DNA of 17,623 bases, taken from assembly GCA_015654715.1 (NCBI GenBank), contig JAATGK010000453.1, forward strand, positions 1 through 17,623, written 5' to 3'. The stretch's first letter is position 1; each line of letters begins with the position of its first letter. Shown one piece after another: positions 6,582 to 17,260 of the stretch. A model generated the notes under the pieces. The model did not search any database. It was not told where the DNA came from and saw only the letters and a program-made list of their open reading frames with translations. A program made the position numbers and the translations under genes. This DNA comes from Alphaproteobacteria bacterium (GTDB lineage Bacteria > Pseudomonadota > Alphaproteobacteria > Micropepsales > Micropepsaceae).

Positions 6582-6610
6582 AAAATAAGTATTCTTATTG
6601 TAATTCTCAA
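6582..6610 (-). promoter_or_regulatory. Candidate sigma70-type promoter for lpdA
   Basis: Read on the minus strand, TTGAGA (6605-6610) and TATTTT (6582-6587) are separated by 17 bases. The -35 matches TTGACA at 5 of 6 positions and the -10 matches TATAAT at 4 of 6. The -35 overlaps the stop of the upstream GT39 gene. Transcription would start near 6575, about 25 bases before the ATG. An imperfect AATAAG/CTTATT palindrome overlaps the spacer. The call rests on sequence likeness only. Confidence 0.35.
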
Positions 6611-8145
6611 GGCATCCGGCCAAGCGATGCGCCCTTGGGGCTGCTCACCCGGTAAACGACGTAATGGGCGATCGCGATGCCATGGCGCTGGCGGTCGATG
6701 CGGGCGACCGGCGTCACCTCGGCAAAGGACTGGGCAACCAAAGCGTGCAGATCGCGGCGCTCCTCGGCGATGTAAAGGGCCGGTTCGGCGAAGGCGGCAG
6801 CGGTCAGCGGCGGCGAATTGGGCCAGCGCTCGTCCTCGCCCAAGCTGGCGACCGGGTACGGGCTGTAGAAGGCGAACCAGGCAGTGGAGGCGTAATCGGT
6901 GGTCAGGATCACCTCGGCGCCGGTAGCGGTTTTGAGAGCCCCGAGGTCTTCGACAACCTCGGGCATGCCGACCGCCAGCAGCCGGGCCAGCGGGTCCTTG
7001 CGGCCCATCGGAACGACGCCGAAGAGCGCCTGGGCATAACCGGCGACGACCAGCACGGCGGCAACCGGAATTGCCAGTCTGGCCGACCATTGCGCCAGCG
7101 GCCGGCGCCAGCCGGTCCAATCGGTGCGGGTGAAGGCATCGGCCGCGGCGATGGCCAGCGCCGGATAAAGGTAACACGGCCAATTGCCCTGCACCCGGTC
7201 GTGCAGCGCGTGAACGGCGAAATAAGCGAGCGACGGCCAAATCAGGCAGGCGATCAGGGCGCGGGCTTGGTCACGGCGGCGGGCGGCGCACAGCCCCATC
7301 ACGCCCAGCACCAGGGTGAACGGCGTCGCCAGCAAAGCCTGCGCCCCGACGAACTCGCCGAGGTATTTGAAGGTGAAGTGGTTTCCGGCGATGCGGCCGA
7401 ACTGGAAAGCGATGGTCACCCAGCCGTGATCGGCATTCCAGGCGATGTTGGGCGCGAACAGCGCCAAGGCGATGGCACCGCCGAGATAGGGCCAAGGCGA
7501 GACCAGCCAGCGCCGCAGCGGCGGCAAGGCGATCAGCCAGATCAGCACGCCCGCGCCCAGAAACAACGTCGAATATTTGGCGAGAAGACCCAGCCCGGCC
7601 GCGACGCCGACGGCGAGCCACCAACGGCCGTTACCGGTCGCGGCGACTTTGGCGAGGGTCCACAGCAAGGCGCTGGCGGTGAGAATCTGCGGCGTGTCCG
7701 GGGTGGCCGCCAGCATTTCCACCGTGACCATCAAGGTCAGATTGAACAGCAACGCGGCGCGGGGACCGGCGTCTTTATCCTTCAGCAGCAGGGCAGCGCT
7801 CTGCCACACGAACCAAGTGGCAAGGAGCGAGCTGAGAATGCCGGCGATGCGGACGCCGAAGGCGGTCTGGCCGAATAGCAGCGTGCCGGCGCGAATCAGC
7901 CAGGCGATGGCCGGGGGATGGTCGAAATAGCCGGCCGCAAGGTGGCGCGACCACAGCCAATAATAGGCTTCATCGGCCGACAGCGGCAGCACGGCGCCCG
8001 CGATCAGCCGCACGGCGCCCAACAAAACCAGCGCCGCCAGAAACCGGTTTTTGCGGATTACCTGGTGCGCCAGATGAACATGCTCGACATGGCGTAATTC
8101 CACAGCACGCCCACAACCGATCCCGCGAGGCCGGCAACCAACCAT
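6607..8145 (-). CDS. GT39/ArnT-like integral membrane glycosyltransferase (PMT_2 superfamily)
   Basis: The 512-aa frame encodes a polytopic GT-C protein with many hydrophobic segments. The first periplasmic loop has the hallmark SADEAYYWLWSRHLAAGYFD followed by HPP (residues 56-78), where Asp58-Glu59 is the metal-binding/catalytic pair of this superfamily. A less hydrophobic C-terminal region follows after about residue 380. Such enzymes move a sugar from a polyprenyl-phosphate donor to an acceptor on the outer face of the inner membrane (lipid A, glycan or protein). The upstream GT2-GtrA gene, which it overlaps, would supply the donor. The start is uncertain. ATG 8145 gives an 88-bp overlap; GTG 8103 gives 46 bp. 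Neither has a convincing ribosome site, and the conserved part begins only around residue 34 (RFLAALVLLGAVRL), so the true start may be nearer the end of the upstream gene. The acceptor is unknown. Confidence 0.85.
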   Translation of the reverse strand: MVGCRPRGIGCGRAVELRHVEHVHLAHQVIRKNRFLAALVLLGAVRLIAGAVLPLSADEAYYWLWSRHLAAGYFDHPPAIAWLIRAGTLLFGQTAFGVRIAGILSSLLATWFVWQSAALLLKDKDAGPRAALLFNLTLMVTVEMLAATPDTPQILTASALLWTLAKVAATGNGRWWLAVGVAAGLGLLAKYSTLFLGAGVLIWLIALPPLRRWLVSPWPYLGGAIALALFAPNIAWNADHGWVTIAFQFGRIAGNHFTFKYLGEFVGAQALLATPFTLVLGVMGLCAARRRDQARALIACLIWPSLAYFAVHALHDRVQGNWPCYLYPALAIAAADAFTRTDWTGWRRPLAQWSARLAIPVAAVLVVAGYAQALFGVVPMGRKDPLARLLAVGMPEVVEDLGALKTATGAEVILTTDYASTAWFAFYSPYPVASLGEDERWPNSPPLTAAAFAEPALYIAEERRDLHALVAQSFAEVTPVARIDRQRHGIAIAHYVVYRVSSPKGASLGRMP

Positions 8146-9188
8146 GTTTCATGATGGACGTAAAGCTGCGAGGCGAGCCCGATATCGGTTACCGCCCCGA
8201 TGGCGCCGAAGATGCTAAAGCCGATGAAGCCGCGGATCAATCCGAGACCCTTCAGGCGGCGGTCGCGATAGGTGAAGTTGTTGTTGAGCAGGAAGTTCCA
8301 CAGCATCGCGACGCCAGTGGCGACCGTTTTGGCCCATTCGAAACCCGCTGCCGGAGACAGCACCATGGCGAGATTGAGAATCGCAAGATTGATCGCCACA
8401 CCGGTGGCCCCGACGATGGCAAAGAAGATGAAGCGCGGATCGACGAGGCCGTGGGTCAGCTTCGACAGTACCAGGCCGAGGAACTCGACGCCGATCTGCA
8501 TGTTGAATTTCGATTCGCCTTCAAAGCGCGCGCCGAAAGAATAGGGCTGTTCGGCGATCCTGAGGCCTTCGCTGGCGGTGGCGATGTCGAGCAGGATCTT
8601 GAAGCCCACCGGCGACAGGCGCGGCGCCATTTCATCGAAGGTCTCGCGGCGCATCATGAAGAAGCCGCTCATCGGATCCGAAAGTTCGGTGCCCAACACC
8701 TTCTGGGTGATTTTGGTGGCCAGCCGGCTGATTTTCGAGCGCGCCGCGCTGAACGAACCGGCATCGCCGCCTTCGACATAACGGGTGGCGCCGACGAGGT
8801 CGTATTCGCCCGATTGCAATTTGGCGAGCATCGCCGGCAGCACGGTCTCGTCGTGCTGCAAATCGGCGTCCATCACGGCGACATAGGGGGCGGCCGACGA
8901 CAGAATACCTTCGATGCAGGCCCCGGCGAGGCCGCGGCGTCCAACCCGGCGCAAGCACCGCACACGCGGATCGGTGCGCGCGATGTTCTTCACCGCATCG
9001 GCGGTACCGTCCGGCGAATTGTCGTCGACATAAACGGCTTCCCAACGGATGCCCTTGAGCGTCGCATCAAGTCGCCGGATCAATTCCGTGACGTTGCCGC
9101 GCTCGTTGTAGGTCGGGATGACGACGGAGAGTTGCACGTCCTGCCCCACGCTAGGGGCGGACTTGGAATCGGCGCTGGCGAAAGTCAT
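8058..9188 (-). CDS. GT2 polyprenyl-phosphate glycosyltransferase fused to GtrA-like membrane domain
   Basis: I set the start at the ATG 9186-9188 because AGGTGGGA lies 3 bases upstream of it; a longer frame exists to 9224. The product is 376 aa. Residues about 20-245 are a dolichol-phosphate-mannose-synthase-type GT2 domain: SVVIPTYNERGNV (21-33), DDNSPDGT (55-62), MDADLQHDE (106-114), RYVEGG (136-141), DPMSGFFMMRR (171-181). Residues about 253-374 form a GtrA-like domain with about four membrane helices and the typical NFLLNNNFTYRDR stretch (298-310). The enzyme should transfer a hexose from a nucleotide sugar to undecaprenyl phosphate in the cytoplasm, with the GtrA part anchoring it or helping flip the product. 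The GT39 gene starts inside its 3' end, which implies translational coupling and joint function. The transferred sugar cannot be read from sequence. Confidence 0.9.
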   Translation of the reverse strand: MTFASADSKSAPSVGQDVQLSVVIPTYNERGNVTELIRRLDATLKGIRWEAVYVDDNSPDGTADAVKNIARTDPRVRCLRRVGRRGLAGACIEGILSSAAPYVAVMDADLQHDETVLPAMLAKLQSGEYDLVGATRYVEGGDAGSFSAARSKISRLATKITQKVLGTELSDPMSGFFMMRRETFDEMAPRLSPVGFKILLDIATASEGLRIAEQPYSFGARFEGESKFNMQIGVEFLGLVLSKLTHGLVDPRFIFFAIVGATGVAINLAILNLAMVLSPAAGFEWAKTVATGVAMLWNFLLNNNFTYRDRRLKGLGLIRGFIGFSIFGAIGAVTDIGLASQLYVHHETWLVAGLAGSVVGVLWNYAMSSMFIWRTR

Positions 9189-9270
9189 GGGTCCCACCTT
9201 TAAGGGGCGGGTTAGTGGGCGCACCGCACGGCAACGTCAAGTGTTCGCCAGCCGCAGCCGATGCCCTCAA

Positions 9271-10807: not shown

Positions 10808-10857
10808 TCTATTAGGGCGTTTCCGGCTTTTTGCGCCGGTGGGGACCCATAGCGCTC

Positions 10858-12408
10858 ATGCAAGCATCGCGTCACTGGCCAGTCGCCGTCTTGGGGCTGC
10901 TCACAGCTCTTTTCATTCTTCCGTTGTGGTGGGTGAGTTCGCCCGCCATGCCGGACTATCCGGCGCATCTGGCCGGATTCCATCTCATCCGTAGCGGCGC
11001 CGAGGCGTCGCCGTTCTACACCATTCATTGGCGGCTGCTGCCCAATCTCGGCGCCGACATTCTGGTGCCGCTGTTGGCTGCCGTGCTGCCGCTCGAAGTC
11101 GCCGTGAAACTGTTCCTCAGTATCGCGGTCTTGATGTGGGTGACGGGCGCCGCTCTCATTCAGCGCGCGATAACTGGACGCATCGGCGTCGCACCCTTGG
11201 CTGGCGCGCTCTTTACGGTTAACGCAAATTTCACCTGGGGCTTTCTCAACTACACCTTCGCCTCCGGGCTCGCCTTCGTGCTCTTCGCGGCCTGGATCGC
11301 AACACGCGGCAAGCGTTCGCCGCTGGTGCTGGCGGGATTCATGGTGGCGGCGTTCGCGCTCTATGTCTGCCATCTGTTCGGCGCCTGCGTGCTGGCGGCG
11401 CTGATCGGCATGTACGAAATCTCGGCGGGGTTGCGCGCCCGGCCGTTCGATCTCGCCGCGCTGGGCAAGCGCGTGCTGACCGTGTTCGTGATCTTCCTGC
11501 CGGAAGCGTTATTGGTGCTGTTCTTCAAATCGGCCGGCGGCGAGGGCGGCGGCGTCGAATTCAATTATGGCGACACGATCGGCGACCGTTTCGGCAGCGC
11601 CGCGCAATGGGCGTTTTCCGATCCGGCCTATCTCGTCATCGGCGGGCTCTCGATTCTGATCCTGGCGGGTCTGGCCTATGGCAAGTTGCGGCTGCATCCG
11701 GCGATGAAGCTCTTGGTGCTGGTCATGGCGACGCTGACGCTGATCGCGCCGGAATGGGCGCTGGGCGGCTGGGGCGTCGACATGCGCCTGCCGCCGGTTT
11801 TGGGTGTCATCGTCTTCGCCAGCCTCGAACTCAGGGTCGACAAGCGGCTCGCCGCGGCATTCGGCACCCTCGTCGTGGTGATTGCCGCCGTCAATGCCGC
11901 AACCTTGATCATCGACTGGTCTGCCAAGAATCGTCAGTACAGGGAATTCCGCACCGCCATCGCCGACATCCCCAAGGGCTCGAAGATCTTCACCGTGCTC
12001 GACGGCGATGCCTTGAACGACACCTCCGACCCGCCTTATTGGCACATGGCGGAATTCGCCATCGTCGATCGCGGCGCCTTCACGCCCTTGATGTTCGCCA
12101 CCAAAGGTCAGCACGTCGTCGAACTCAAGGCGCCTTACGACAAGCTGGCCGCCGCCACGGCGCAACAAGGCTCGCCGCCCGACGCGACGGAACTGGCCAA
12201 TCTGGCGCTCGGCCGCTCCGCCGACGACAAGGACATCGACGAGGTGTTTCCGTACCTCAAGTTCTTCCAGTGCCGCTTCGATTATGCCGTGGTGATCCAC
12301 GGCGGCGGCGACCAGGCGGATGTGCCGGCGTTCATGCACCTCGCCTATGCCGGCAGCTTCTTCTCGCTTTATAAGATACGACCCACCGGGCTTTGCACCA
12401 CGCTATGA
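10858..12408 (+). CDS. Polytopic membrane protein, GT-C glycosyltransferase-like
   Basis: I do not recognise a named family. ATG 10858 gives 516 aa; an in-frame TTG at 10831 would add nine residues but lies next to the repeats. About ten hydrophobic helices run from residue 8 to about 352, followed by a soluble C-terminal domain (about 355-516). The first loop after helix 1 has SSPAMPDYPAHLAGFHLIRS (27-46), with Asp33 where GT-C glycosyltransferases carry an acidic catalytic residue. Helix packing with a C-terminal extracytoplasmic domain is also GT-C-like. The next gene starts inside this stop codon (ATGA), so the two are surely co-translated and probably work together. A role in lipid-linked sugar transfer during surface glycan assembly is inference. 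No signal peptide separate from helix 1 is seen. Confidence 0.75.
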   Translation: MQASRHWPVAVLGLLTALFILPLWWVSSPAMPDYPAHLAGFHLIRSGAEASPFYTIHWRLLPNLGADILVPLLAAVLPLEVAVKLFLSIAVLMWVTGAALIQRAITGRIGVAPLAGALFTVNANFTWGFLNYTFASGLAFVLFAAWIATRGKRSPLVLAGFMVAAFALYVCHLFGACVLAALIGMYEISAGLRARPFDLAALGKRVLTVFVIFLPEALLVLFFKSAGGEGGGVEFNYGDTIGDRFGSAAQWAFSDPAYLVIGGLSILILAGLAYGKLRLHPAMKLLVLVMATLTLIAPEWALGGWGVDMRLPPVLGVIVFASLELRVDKRLAAAFGTLVVVIAAVNAATLIIDWSAKNRQYREFRTAIADIPKGSKIFTVLDGDALNDTSDPPYWHMAEFAIVDRGAFTPLMFATKGQHVVELKAPYDKLAAATAQQGSPPDATELANLALGRSADDKDIDEVFPYLKFFQCRFDYAVVIHGGGDQADVPAFMHLAYAGSFFSLYKIRPTGLCTTL

Positions 12409-13802
12409 CGAAGCCGACGCCGCGCCTCGCACTGGTCGCCGTTCTGACCCTTCTGGGTCTGCTTTGTGCGATAGCGCTGTGGCGGGTGGTGACGGTACTC
12501 GGCCTCACGATGGCGTTCGATCCCAACGAGGGTTGGAACGCTTATCACACCGCCGCCCTGATGCGCGGCCAGGCGCTTTATCCCGGGCACGCCGCTTATC
12601 TGGTCAACAATTATCCGCCGCTGTCGTTCTATGTCGTCGGCGTGGTTGGCCTTATCGTCGGCGACAACATCGTGGCGGGACGGCTGGTATCGCTGCTCGC
12701 TGTCGCGGCGATCGCGCTGGCGATGACGATCCTGGCGCGGCGGCAAGGTGCGGACCGTGCGGTGTGCGTGTTGCCGGCGCTGTGGTTTCTCGCCGGATTG
12801 CTGGTCACCACCGACTATGTCGGCATGGACGATCCGCAGCTGCTGGCGCATGCCGTATCGATCGCAGGCCTTTTGGTTCTGACGCAAAAACCTTCGTCGC
12901 GTACTGGTGTTGCGGCTGCGGCGCTGCTGTTCGTCGCCGCGTTCTTCGTCAAGCACAATGTCGTGGCGCTGCCGGTTGCCGCGTTCCTGTGGCTGCTGCT
13001 TGACAATCGCAAGCGCGCTTTCGAACTTGCCGCGTTCGGCGCGCTGTTCCTGGTCGTCGGACTGATCGCGTTCCGGCTGGCATATGGCGTGAGTTTGCTC
13101 GCTGTGGTGGCGACGGCGCGGCTCTATTCGGTGGACCAGCTTGTCGCCGCGCTGCTGCACTGGCTTTACTGGACGGGCTTCGCCATCCTCGCGCTCGCCG
13201 TTCTGACATGGGTCAGGCCGCGCAACGCCGCGGTTCGCTTCGCAGCAATTTATGCTGCGGTCGCGATCGCCATCGGCAGCTATTTTCTCGGCGGCGCCGG
13301 CGTCGATCCGAATGTGATGTTCGACGCCGACATCGCCCTCGGCCTGTCGCTGGCCTTGGTGGTACAGCGCATCGCCGGCTGGATGCGGCCTGCCGCTGCG
13401 CTGGTGTTGGCGGCGCCGCTGCTTTTCACCGCTGCGACCGACAAGGAATGGCAGGCGGTCTATCTCGATTTTCATGCTGTGGCTGAGGAGTCGTTCATCG
13501 CGCGCGGCGACATCGCCTTCATGGCGGCGCACAAAGGCCCGGGCCTCTGCGAAATGCTGGCGTTCTGTTACTGGGCCGGCAAGCCGCCGGCGGTCGACAT
13601 GTTCAATGTCGGCCAGCAGTTCGAGACCGGCAGCCGAAGTGACGCCGAGGTGGTGCGCGACGTCGCCGCCAAACGCTATGCGGTGATCCAATTCGATCCC
13701 GGCGAGCCTTATGCCCTGGGCGAGAACGTCGCCAATGCGGTGATGCGGTCTTATCGTCTGCATCACAGCGACGATTTCGGGACCTTCTACGTCCCGAAGT
13801 AA
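12405..13802 (+). CDS. GT-C-family integral membrane glycosyltransferase (putative)
   Basis: ATG 12405 overlaps the previous stop as ATGA, which I prefer to the TTG four codons earlier. The 465-aa product has a first helix at about 7-33, then a loop with DPNEGWNAYHTAALM (39-53) and NNYPPLSFYVVG (68-79). An acidic D/E pair followed about 30 residues later by YPP is the usual GT39/GT83-like GT-C pattern: the acidic residue is catalytic and the donor is a polyprenyl-phosphate sugar. Eight or more helices follow to about residue 345, then a soluble tail. A second acidic motif, DPNVMFDADIAL, lies at 303-314. Acceptor and sugar are unknown. It is convergent with the exopolysaccharide synthase fusion with only 20 bp between the two stops. 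Confidence 0.8.
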   Translation: MTKPTPRLALVAVLTLLGLLCAIALWRVVTVLGLTMAFDPNEGWNAYHTAALMRGQALYPGHAAYLVNNYPPLSFYVVGVVGLIVGDNIVAGRLVSLLAVAAIALAMTILARRQGADRAVCVLPALWFLAGLLVTTDYVGMDDPQLLAHAVSIAGLLVLTQKPSSRTGVAAAALLFVAAFFVKHNVVALPVAAFLWLLLDNRKRAFELAAFGALFLVVGLIAFRLAYGVSLLAVVATARLYSVDQLVAALLHWLYWTGFAILALAVLTWVRPRNAAVRFAAIYAAVAIAIGSYFLGGAGVDPNVMFDADIALGLSLALVVQRIAGWMRPAAALVLAAPLLFTAATDKEWQAVYLDFHAVAEESFIARGDIAFMAAHKGPGLCEMLAFCYWAGKPPAVDMFNVGQQFETGSRSDAEVVRDVAAKRYAVIQFDPGEPYALGENVANAVMRSYRLHHSDDFGTFYVPK

Positions 13803-13822: not shown

Positions 13823-16800
13823 TTATTCCGCTGGCGTCTTGCGCGCGACGGTCTTGACCGTGCCCGTCCGTTCCAGCTTGCCCCAACCGACCACGGCGCC
13901 GCGCAAGGCAGTCGAGATCGAACGCATCACGACGTAGTACATGAGCTGGCGATAACCGAAGCGTTGCAACATCAGCCACCAGAGCAGACTCCAGTTCTCG
14001 CGCTTCTCCATCGCGAAACCGACCACCGCCGCGGCGAGGTCGACCAGCGTGAAGACGACATAATAGATGCCGACGGTGACGAGGTTCTGATTGGAGAATT
14101 CGGAGCCATGCTGCACAAACGCGACCCATTGCGTCAGCAATTGCCAGATCAAAAGCAGGTCGGCGACCGGCGCCAAAGCCGTCAGAATGATCTGGAACAT
14201 CCAGACCTGCGGCAGGGCGATCAGGCCAAGCGCGCCGTAGCGCTTGTTGAAGGTCATGTCGCGATACTTCCACAGGCACTGCAGCGTGCCATAAGCCCAG
14301 CGGAAGCGCTGTTTCGCTAAGGTACGGAACGACGACGGCGCCTCGGTCCAGGCCACGGCGGTGGAATCGAACCGCACATGATAGCCGGCGCGCTGCAGAT
14401 TGATCGTGAGGTCCTGGTCCTCGGCGAGCGTATCGGTGGGATAGCCGCCGAGATCGAGCAGCACCTGCCGGCGCCACGCCCCGACCGCGCCGGGAACCAC
14501 GGTGAGCGTGCCCAGCGCCGCCAGCGCCCGCCGCTCCAGGTTCTGCGCCACCACGTATTCCAGCGCCTGCCAGCGCGTGATCATGTTGAAGCGGTTGCCG
14601 ACCTTGGCGTTGCCGGCGACGGCGCCGACTTCCGGATCGACGAACCAACGCACCAGCCGCGAAATCGTGTCGTGATCGAACTGGGTGTCGGCATCAAGCG
14701 CGACGATGACGTCGCCGTGCGCCCGCTCCAGACCGAGATTGAGCGCCTTCGCCTTGCCGCCGTTGGGGATGGTGATGAGGGTGACGTTCGGCACCGCGCC
14801 GAAGCTCTCCTTCACCACCTCCGACGTGCGGTCGTGCGAGCCGTCGTCGATCACCAGAACTTCTAGATCGCGGTAATCGGAGGCCAAAATGCGCGCCACG
14901 GTCTCCGCAATCACCTTCTCTTCGTTGAAGGCCGGAATGATGACCGACACCGGAATGTGCGTTACCGGCGCCGGCGGATCTTCCGTCCGGTGCGCCCGCT
15001 GCTGGTTCCAGAGCGCCAAGCCGCAAAGCACCAACAGGCGGCCCAGCCCCAAGAAGATCGCCGCCAGGAAGCAATAATAAAGAATACTGCCCATCCAGCT
15101 CAGCGTCAGGAAGACGACGCGGTTGGCATAAAGCGTCAGAGTCGGCGCCGAACGCGGCATCGACTGCTCGCGCGTCAGACCGGCGAGCTTGGACACCATC
15201 ACGAACTTGTAGCCGCGGGCACGCAGATCATCGATCAAACCGGGCAACAGCTCGACGGTCCTGGTGCGGTCGCCGCCGGAATCGTGCAGAAGAATAATGT
15301 TGCCGCGGGTTTCGGGATCGGGGTCGGTCACCGCCGCCAGGATGCGCGCCATCATCTCTTGGTGCGAGGGCTGCTGCCAGTCGAACGGATCGACGTGCAC
15401 ACCGATGGTGAGATAGCCCTGGTCCTGAGCGATCTGAACAGGAATGATTTCGTCCTTGTTCACCGGCTCGGCGTCGCCGAGATAGGGCGGGCGGAACAGA
15501 ACCATGCGCCGCCCGGTCAGCGCCTCGAACAGTTTCTGGGTCGCGTTGTATTCGATGCGATCGGCTTCCGGCGACGTTTCGGCGAGGTTCGGATGGGTGA
15601 AGGTGTGATTGCCGACTTCGTGGCCTTCATCAAGGATGCGCTGCAACAACCCCGGATGGGCTTCGGCATTGGCGCCGATAATGAAGAACGTCGCCTTGAC
15701 GTGCTTCGCTTTCAGAATGTCGAGAATGGTGGGCGTGTAGGCCGGATCCGGACCATCGTCGAACGTCAGCGCCAAGGTCATCGGCTGGGCGCCGACCCGC
15801 CGGATGACGAAGCTGGTCGGCAGACCGATGTAGGTCTCGTCGCTGATGTCGCCGGTCTGGGTATCGATTTCAAAGCTGCGGGTGCCGGCGGTCGGCGAGG
15901 CGACGACGCGCAGCACCTCGCCGATGCCTTCGAAGTCGACATCTTCGCTGGTCGGAATATGGCGCAATCCGGCCGGAGCCGGCGCATCGTAAGGCCGGCC
16001 GAACACCGACCAGACCGTCGGGTCCTCACTGCCCACTTTCCACAATGCGTAGCCCGCCGGCTGGAAAACGTCGGCGGCGTGGATCTGGTTGAACACAGTC
16101 ACGCCATCGAGAAACCAGACGTCGTGACGGACATGGTCGTTTTCGAAATAAGAGAAGTGCGGATTGTTGCTGTTGGGATCGAAATCGACACGGGCGCTGG
16201 AGTCCTTGGCGGCCACCATCGCACCCTGGAAGGTCATGTTATCGGCGAGTTCCGTGCCGCGGCTCCAATCGTAGGCATAACTGCCGACGGCAATGATGGT
16301 GCGGCTCGGCGGCAGCTCCCGCATCCGCTTGTCGAGCGTCTCTTCAAACCAGGACTCGCCCGCGATCGGTCCGGCTTGGTCGGCGTCGTCGTGCTGGTCG
16401 TAGGCCATCAGCACGGTGTAATCGATCGACTTGGCGAACTGGGCGTAAGGCCAAGTGTCTTCCTCGAACGGCGCGCATTGTACCAACACCCAGCCGTTGG
16501 GCGCGAACTGGGCCGACAATTCCTTGAGGAACGTGTCGAGATCGTTGTAGCCGCTCGCCGGCACCATTTCGAAGTCGATCACCAAGCCCTGGAATTTGCC
16601 CGTCCGGACGAAATCGACGAGGTTTTTTTCGAGCGCGGCGCGGCGGGCCGGATCGGCGAGCATGCGCTGCAGATTGGCGCCGTCCCAATCGCCGCCGGCG
16701 ATGTTCTGCACCAGCGGCAGGATCGGCAGCGACGGCCGCTCGGTCTGCACCAGCTTCTGAGCCTCATGGTCGATCGTGACCTTAAGGGCCATGTTGGGGC

Positions 16801-17260
16801 CGGAGATCGTCAGCCAGCACGGCATAAACCAGTCGAGTTTCCACAATGCCCGCTTCAGCGCCGGGTAGCTGGTGTCGTTGTTGTCTGAGGAATCATAGAA
16901 GCCCATCGCCAGCGGCCGGTCGGGACGGGGCCGGAGCGCCGCCGACAGTTCGCGCGAGGAGGCCTTTTGATGCGCCAGCCGGTCTTTCCAGCCCCGCACC
17001 AGAGCTTCGCGGTGGCGCGCCTCGGCGGCGTAGCGCACGGCAGACTTAAGCTTGGTCGGATCGACGGCGCGGCGGACCAGCGGATTGTTGGGGGTCAGCT
17101 TGAGCTGAATATCTGGTGTTTCGGTGTTCGTGCTGACCAGAATCGACGCCAAAAAGGCGATCCCGAACAGGGTAGAGACGATTGCCCCCGCCCAGCCCAG
17201 CATCGACAGGCGCGCCGCGCGGCGGCCGGTTTCATCAAAAAAGATCGGTTTGTTGGCCAT
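13823..17260 (-). CDS. Trimodular GH18-like / CE4 polysaccharide deacetylase / GT2 synthase fusion
   Basis: The 1145-aa protein joins three carbohydrate-active modules. A signal-anchor helix lies at about 20-43. A GH18 domain of the spore-hydrolase (YaaH) type spans about 115-425, with GLVIDFEMV (225-233) supplying Asp229 and Glu231; the first two Asp of the DxxDxDxE motif are Gln224 and Val227. A CE4/NodB deacetylase spans about 490-695: TFDDGPDP (499-506), metal ligands NHTFTHPN (551-558), RPPY (590-593), ILLHDSGGD (656-664). After a membrane helix near 715-740 comes a processive GT2 domain (about 768-1000): VSVIIPAFNEE, DDGS (805-808), ALDADT (854-859), AEDQD (946-950), KQRFRW (983-988), then C-terminal helices. 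Topology puts GH18 and CE4 outside and GT2 inside. It probably polymerises GlcNAc, deacetylates the emerging chain and may cut it, like PgaB plus PgaC in one chain. The polymer is unproven. Confidence 0.92.
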   Translation of the reverse strand: MANKPIFFDETGRRAARLSMLGWAGAIVSTLFGIAFLASILVSTNTETPDIQLKLTPNNPLVRRAVDPTKLKSAVRYAAEARHREALVRGWKDRLAHQKASSRELSAALRPRPDRPLAMGFYDSSDNNDTSYPALKRALWKLDWFMPCWLTISGPNMALKVTIDHEAQKLVQTERPSLPILPLVQNIAGGDWDGANLQRMLADPARRAALEKNLVDFVRTGKFQGLVIDFEMVPASGYNDLDTFLKELSAQFAPNGWVLVQCAPFEEDTWPYAQFAKSIDYTVLMAYDQHDDADQAGPIAGESWFEETLDKRMRELPPSRTIIAVGSYAYDWSRGTELADNMTFQGAMVAAKDSSARVDFDPNSNNPHFSYFENDHVRHDVWFLDGVTVFNQIHAADVFQPAGYALWKVGSEDPTVWSVFGRPYDAPAPAGLRHIPTSEDVDFEGIGEVLRVVASPTAGTRSFEIDTQTGDISDETYIGLPTSFVIRRVGAQPMTLALTFDDGPDPAYTPTILDILKAKHVKATFFIIGANAEAHPGLLQRILDEGHEVGNHTFTHPNLAETSPEADRIEYNATQKLFEALTGRRMVLFRPPYLGDAEPVNKDEIIPVQIAQDQGYLTIGVHVDPFDWQQPSHQEMMARILAAVTDPDPETRGNIILLHDSGGDRTRTVELLPGLIDDLRARGYKFVMVSKLAGLTREQSMPRSAPTLTLYANRVVFLTLSWMGSILYYCFLAAIFLGLGRLLVLCGLALWNQQRAHRTEDPPAPVTHIPVSVIIPAFNEEKVIAETVARILASDYRDLEVLVIDDGSHDRTSEVVKESFGAVPNVTLITIPNGGKAKALNLGLERAHGDVIVALDADTQFDHDTISRLVRWFVDPEVGAVAGNAKVGNRFNMITRWQALEYVVAQNLERRALAALGTLTVVPGAVGAWRRQVLLDLGGYPTDTLAEDQDLTINLQRAGYHVRFDSTAVAWTEAPSSFRTLAKQRFRWAYGTLQCLWKYRDMTFNKRYGALGLIALPQVWMFQIILTALAPVADLLLIWQLLTQWVAFVQHGSEFSNQNLVTVGIYYVVFTLVDLAAAVVGFAMEKRENWSLLWWLMLQRFGYRQLMYYVVMRSISTALRGAVVGWGKLERTGTVKTVARKTPAE

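Follow-up and report, generated by a model that had tools for sequence, protein, structure and literature searches.

What would be made by a protein that carries a hydrolase, a deacetylase and a glycosyltransferase on one chain? The question is raised by a 17,623-nucleotide stretch of DNA (the window) from an alphaproteobacterium of the Micropepsaceae (GCA_015654715.1, contig JAATGK010000453.1), whose minus strand carries a fusion gene at exactly 13823–17260. This gene is a single intact open reading frame (ORF) encoding 1145 amino acids, in which a glycoside hydrolase family 18 (GH18) domain, a carbohydrate esterase family 4 (CE4) domain and a glycosyltransferase family 2 (GT2) domain follow one another. 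Judged from sequence and a predicted structure, the fusion is probably a polysaccharide synthase of the inner membrane that also tailors its own product, which would be partly de-N-acetylated poly-N-acetylglucosamine (poly-GlcNAc). The window is an entire contig of a fragmented assembly (3.13 Mb in 518 contigs, 74% complete), so the upstream context ends 363 bases past the fusion start codon.

Domains, active sites and predicted topology

The three domains are each recognized by Pfam, in agreement with the first-pass annotation, which had read one chain with GH18, CE4 and processive GT2 parts and intact CE4 and GT2 motifs. The GH18 domain (PF00704, 58.3 bits against a cut-off of 29.6, residues 187–369) lies within a TIM barrel spanning residues 112–427 (15980–16927, minus strand, as are all fusion coordinates below). 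It retains D229-x-E231 and the MAYD motif at 285–288, which includes Y287, and its barrel fold, catalytic DxE and score place it in GH18. The CE4 domain (PF01522, 119.1 bits, residues 494–595) extends over residues 495–700 (15161–15778) and belongs to CE4 by NodB homology, with the D/H/H metal triad and five motifs in canonical order: TFDDGP at 499, HTFTHP at 552, RPPY at 590, DPFDW at 624 and LLH at 657. Its fold matches structures 7fbw (Foldseek TMt 0.91) and 4l1g (0.84–0.85). Between the two lies a linker with a conserved consensus, modelled as five β-strands (residues 440–490; 15791–15943). The GT2 domain (PF13641, 122.5 bits, residues 771–991) spans residues 771–998 (14267–14950) and keeps DDGS at 805, DAD at 856, ED at 947 and QRFRW at 984. 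Its DxD, ED and QxxRW motifs, its membrane helices and a modelled fold like that of hyaluronan synthase and BcsA are those of a processive GT2, for which polymerization is predicted.

Conservation extends to the catalytic residues of all three domains. Residue counts were made over 66 rows with mutual identity below 62%, leaving out short rows and two loci (L008 and L015). In GH18, D229, E231 and Y287 are kept in 65/65, 64/65 and 65/65 of the rows having the position. In CE4, D501, D502, H552, H556, R590, D627 and H659 are kept in all 66 rows and D624 in 65, while D856, E947, D948, Q984, R985, R987 and W988 of GT2 are kept in all 66. The same GH18, CE4 and GT2 residues are invariant across the 72-row alignment used for the fold. 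Because its catalytic residues are conserved, the GH18 domain is probably an enzyme rather than a remnant, and an inactive GH18-like domain is unlikely. Single in-frame stop codons occur within fusion genes of six genomes (G012, G480, G549, G557, G539 and G466), through either sequencing error or decay.

The AlphaFold model of the full fusion (pLDDT 88.7) has one helix ahead of GH18 (residues 13–41; 17138–17224) and one 51-residue helix between CE4 and GT2 (residues 708–758; 14987–15139). Three further helices follow GT2 (residues 1006–1054, 1058–1084 and 1090–1120; 13901–14245), which are predicted to lie in the membrane or perhaps at its interface. Hydropathy segments are found at residues 18–46, 715–753, 1008–1043 and 1059–1086. 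It had been proposed that an odd number of membrane crossings separates CE4 from GT2, and the single helix in the model bears this out. The accompanying placement of GH18 and CE4 outside and GT2 inside is consistent with the model and is its best reading, though not proven. No clear charge bias flanks the first helix (+4/−2 before, +5/−3 after) or the second (+3/−1 before, +2/−2 after), and a clear bias is seen only at the C-terminal helices.

The type of each outer domain bears on what the protein might act upon. The solved sequences nearest to the GH18 domain are YdhD (3cz8), a C. violaceum chitinase (5jh8) and SleL (4s3j), and its motif QGLVIDFE (consensus FQGxNxDFE) resembles that of SleL and YdhD. 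The chains solved for the SleL/YaaH/YdhD and C. violaceum enzymes differ from the fusion in having no CE4 or GT2 part. The CE4 domain is of the NodB/PdaB/PgdA type, and its best NCBIfam model is PdaB (145 bits, below the cut-off of 237). Since the nearest solved relatives thus include spore cortex enzymes (SleL, YdhD) and peptidoglycan deacetylases, GH18 and CE4 could instead remodel peptidoglycan, with GT2 making an unrelated or wall-linked glycan. We consider this improbable, because Pseudomonadota, Armatimonadota, Deinococcus and Prevotella all have these domains joined to a GT2 of processive type, which suggests one pathway, and because export genes adjoin the fusion in some relatives.

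Relation to known systems and the predicted product

The first-pass annotation compared the protein with the PgaABCD system, which makes poly-GlcNAc (PNAG) in E. coli. The likeness holds in part. The GT2 domain is related to PgaC (144 bits, 31% over 272 amino acids by BLAST, against 53.5 bits for E. coli BcsA), and deacetylase and hydrolase activities outside would be combined with a synthase inside, in Pga on separate proteins and here on one chain. The GH18 domain replaces the GH153 domain of PgaB, as had been claimed, and it stands before CE4, whereas the PgaB hydrolase domain stands after its CE4. As far as the available account of PgaB goes, that domain has a GH18/GH20/GH13-like fold without their catalytic motifs (PMC5933820), unlike the GH18 of the fusion.

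The protein is not simply PgaB fused to PgaC, because its CE4 is NodB-like, its GH18 is of the SleL/YdhD/chitinase type, PgaB is unmatched and the other Pga components are not found. Between E. coli PgaB and the fusion, BLAST detects no significant similarity (22.7 bits, E 0.6). Twelve hand-picked fusion-bearing genomes, including the 74% complete genome of the window, were searched for the rest. None has a PgaA (TIGR03939) over the cut-off of 366.65, although all 12 give weak partial tetratricopeptide repeat matches to that model (best 50.3 bits); of the 14 control genomes, 1 passes the cut-off, and E. coli is among the controls giving matches. Likewise, neither the PgaB GH153 domain (PF14883) nor PgaD (PF13994) is found in any of the 12, while the E. 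coli positive control matches both. On these results from the 12 genomes, and for want of similarity to PgaB, a fused Pga system is rejected. In a partial reading of the source, Gram-negative clades of PgaB-like CE4 proteins carry N-terminal fusions, mostly to GT domains, and neither pgaA nor pgaD could be detected with them (PMC7112194); GH18 goes unmentioned for them in the part available, and they are set beside the fusion by description only.

The order of CE4 followed by GT2 equals that of the adjacent nodB and nodC genes of S. meliloti, which encode separate proteins and include no GH18. The CE4 domain is 35% identical to S. meliloti NodB (105 bits) and the GT2 domain 32% identical to NodC (117 bits; both BLAST), two proteins whose identities are confirmed by their own equivalog models. 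The fusion stays below the cut-offs of those models (124.9 against 240 bits for TIGR04243; 119.3 against 550 for TIGR04242), and also below that of the PgaC/IcaA equivalog (195.4 against 422.3 bits), which is nonetheless its highest-scoring GT2 model.

The closest described precedent in plan for the CE4–helix–GT2 core is, by analogy, MatB of Streptomyces (SCO2962/SLI_3306). In the portion of the report consulted, MatB comprises an extracellular CE4, one membrane helix and an intracellular PgaC-like GT2 (PMC5972031), the same three elements on one chain as in the fusion. MatB differs in being an actinobacterial two-domain protein without GH18, from cells with no outer membrane, and it is likened here by plan and not by aligned sequence. 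The conserved GH18 is what the three-domain family adds to the MatB plan, within the wider class of synthase-dependent poly-GlcNAc systems whose deacetylase is fused on.

The mechanism that we consider probable for the fusion runs as follows. The cytosolic GT2 would polymerize GlcNAc from UDP-GlcNAc and push the chain across the membrane, as its PgaC/NodC-like sequence and hyaluronan-synthase-like fold suggest. In the periplasm, the tethered CE4 would strip part of the acetyl groups from the chain, and GH18 would cut acetylated stretches, setting chain length or releasing chains; these tailoring roles are suggested by the conserved catalytic residues. Known GH18 enzymes act on GlcNAc in β-1,4 linkage, with the substrate's own acetyl group taking part, so the GH18 of the fusion would attack the stretches that are still acetylated and leave the others intact. 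Finally, the product may leave through the outer membrane by way of OPX-type export proteins rather than PgaA, as neighbors in some relatives suggest; in the genome of the window the two OPX matches lie on contigs other than that of the fusion.

The linkage of the predicted polymer can be argued both ways. GH18 and NodB-like CE4 enzymes are mostly β-1,4-acting, and for this reason we lean slightly to a chitosan-like (β-1,4) product, a guess that the first-pass annotation also made, with a PNAG-like one close behind. The GH18 domain and one chitinase-bearing gene cluster (described below) favor β-1,4. Weighing against this lean are MatB and the PgaC-like score of the GT2 domain, whose top model is PgaC_IcaA and which matches PgaC better than NodC. 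In the parts of the two Mat reports consulted, the anti-PNAG signal is lost in matA and matB mutants and abolished by dispersin B (PMC5972031, PMC4391728). The MatB CE4 is itself nearest to chitin-type deacetylases, so the type of CE4 cannot decide the linkage. The product could instead be β-1,6-linked PNAG like that for which MatB is required by antibody and dispersin B (PMC5972031), with GH18 adapted to the new linkage or merely binding the chain. This alternative is a serious one, though we would not bet on it: almost every row of the alignment retains the catalytic residues of GH18, and a tree of GT2 domains alone with PgaC, NodC and BcsA, which has long branches, leaves PgaC and NodC not firmly placed and does not decide the linkage. 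We know of no GH18 that cleaves β-1,6-linked GlcNAc, which also counts against PNAG.

Distribution and gene neighborhood

The first-pass annotation also expected relatives of the architecture in other genomes, and a survey across genus, families and phyla finds them. The closest named relatives are from Alphaproteobacteria bacterium UBA1301 (94%, full-length) and Rhizomicrobium electricum DSM 21034 (82%). Among scored candidates, 5985 of 7994 match the fusion at E ≤ 1e-3, and a second search with a Chthonomonas member as query matches 7444 of 7998. GH18 was looked for, by inspection, in the best 120 matches of each search: all but one (P0083) of the first set carry a GH18 Pfam entry, and all of the second are GH18-bearing and cover 91–100% of the query. 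Sequence comparison, through the 94% full-length relative and the thousands of matches, thus confirms the fusion architecture as real beyond chance. In line with the further supposition that the product is undefined, no description of a three-domain GH18–CE4–GT2 protein was recognized in a literature search that left subscription journals mostly uncovered.

The distribution is dense in some lineages and sparse in others. The fusion is matched in 23 of 41 near-relative genomes, comprising 22 of 25 in the same genus (the window's own included; three are contig-end pieces only, G005, G008 and G018) and 1 of 16 others. An even sample of the class has it in 9 of 385 genomes, spread over 6 of 276 genera. 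In another alphaproteobacterial family (f63) it reaches 77 of 149 genomes, in 15 of the 22 genera, a few genomes having only pieces of it. Plasmid records contribute 26 matches at E ≤ 1e-60, of which 21 cover at least 80% of the query, with hosts in Sphingobium, Novosphingobium, Sphingomonas, Sulfitobacter and Deinococcus and in Prevotella nigrescens. In two Streptomyces records and one of Kocuria the match is confined to the CE4–GT2 part, over which Kocuria and a Streptomyces plasmid encode proteins 37–39% identical to the fusion. A "chitinase" adjacent to the Kocuria gene falls below the GH18 cut-off (22.9 against 29.6 bits) and was rejected. In a CE4–GT2 tree, one branch splits 29 GH18 fusions from 17 two-domain proteins (96/86; 97% of bootstraps); the split is weaker in the GT2-only tree (62/64, 80%). 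A single origin of the three-domain form would be compatible with these trees.

Gene neighborhoods were compared in 36 loci, comprising the window and 35 relatives' loci, some of them on short contigs. OPX genes (PF02563) occur near the fusion in five, at 55 bases in L010 and about 1.5–3 kb in L014, L015, L033 and L037, and by coordinates in 4 of 23 fusion-bearing relatives (G001, whose contig is that of L014, G002, G018 and G038). A gene for a 914-residue multi-SLBB protein and the fusion gene converge in G002 (L122). In G038 (L118:4265–10309) the fusion is directly followed by a 491-residue Poly_export protein (weak, 33.5 bits against a cut-off of 28) and then a classical secreted GH18 chitinase (249 bits), all in one direction; this fusion–OPX–chitinase cluster is a single instance, because the fusion occurs in only 1 of 17 genomes sampled in that family. 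OPX queries give no match in 10 plasmid loci or 20 loci of f63. The window's genome holds a second GH18 gene (C437:1295–1900, 64.5 bits) in a 391-residue open frame.

In the window itself, the fusion lies tail to tail with a plus-strand gene for a membrane protein matching PTPS_related and PMT_2 in Pfam (12393–13802), which is preceded by a second conserved neighbor on the same strand encoding a 525-residue membrane protein without a Pfam match (10831–12408). The first is present in 17 of the 36 loci and the second in 16 (tblastn) or 15 (ORF clustering). Among the 41 near-relative genomes, 14 carry the first neighbor (E ≤ 1e-25); all 14 carry the fusion and have the two genes convergent, with the matches ending at most about 60 bases apart. 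In the same genus, eight genomes have the fusion without this neighbor and three have neither. The association is one of linkage and is suggestive only, because all 14 genomes belong to one genus and share synteny. Elsewhere in the window, a contig-end-cut GH65 gene beside a CatAgl α-1,3-glucanase gene (2–2954) looks like an α-1,3-glucan utilization pair, and a PMT_2-type transferase and a GtrA/DPMS-TM GT2 in overlapping frames (6607–9224) perhaps serve lipid-linked sugar transfer.

Other lineages have other neighbors. A DUF3131 protein adjoins the fusion in all three opened Rhodobacterales records (L055, L063 and L064, of nine Sulfitobacter/Limimaricola plasmid records), in L119 (downstream) and in L121 (divergent), and is downstream in four of these five loci. 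By eye, the commonest neighbors in the f63 loci (L096–L115) look like tricarboxylic acid cycle genes, namely sucC-sucD-sucA-sucB (8–9 of 20). In Deinococcus sp. KNUC1210 (L056:5692–10859) a diguanylate cyclase gene comes after the fusion, hinting at control by cyclic di-GMP.

The sphingomonad plasmids bring a further alternative into view. In all five opened loci (L054, L058, L060, L061 and L062, of 12 such records, two being near-identical Sphingobium plasmids), genes for VirJ/AcvB, MprF, a response regulator and a histidine kinase lie within 8 kb of the fusion, in varying order. In Sphingobium they run on from the fusion on the same strand, overlapping or only a few bases apart, and a BLUF photoreceptor-like gene is immediately upstream. 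This cluster is possibly a surface-charge regulon. It would also suit an aminosugar glycolipid or short oligosaccharide instead of a polymer, since HexRK/HexSDF, described for a C. difficile glycolipid, likewise joins a CE4 and a flippase resembling MprF to a two-component system (PMC10128005, seen in part); a mannosyltransferase is also among the best fold matches. We nevertheless regard a glycolipid as a long shot. In the same partial source, HexS is annotated as a monogalactosyldiacylglycerol synthase, in place of which the fusion has a QxxRW GT2, and the model matches the polymerizing hyaluronan synthase over more residues than the mannosyltransferase. A general link of the fusion with MprF and VirJ fails outside sphingomonads, as neither is matched in the 36 loci, and the 20 f63 loci yield no MprF and one VirJ (7 kb off, 32%).

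Returning to a polymer, a more daring and rather doubtful version of the synthase reading is that of a one-protein chitosan machine. Here a β-1,4-forming GT2 would feed CE4, which deacetylates the emerging chain, and a chitinase-like GH18, which cuts where acetyl groups remain, so that the enzyme itself would set length and acetylation pattern before OPX export; in sphingomonads, co-regulation with lysyl-phosphatidylglycerol homeostasis would form a surface-charge response.

If the fusion is a common Gram-negative aminosugar-polymer enzyme, it would extend PNAG- or chitosan-type exopolysaccharides to lineages scored negative by pgaABCD searches. Having synthesis, deacetylation and trimming of a polymer on one polypeptide would also provide a convenient system for studying modification during secretion, and may offer a route to defined chitosans.

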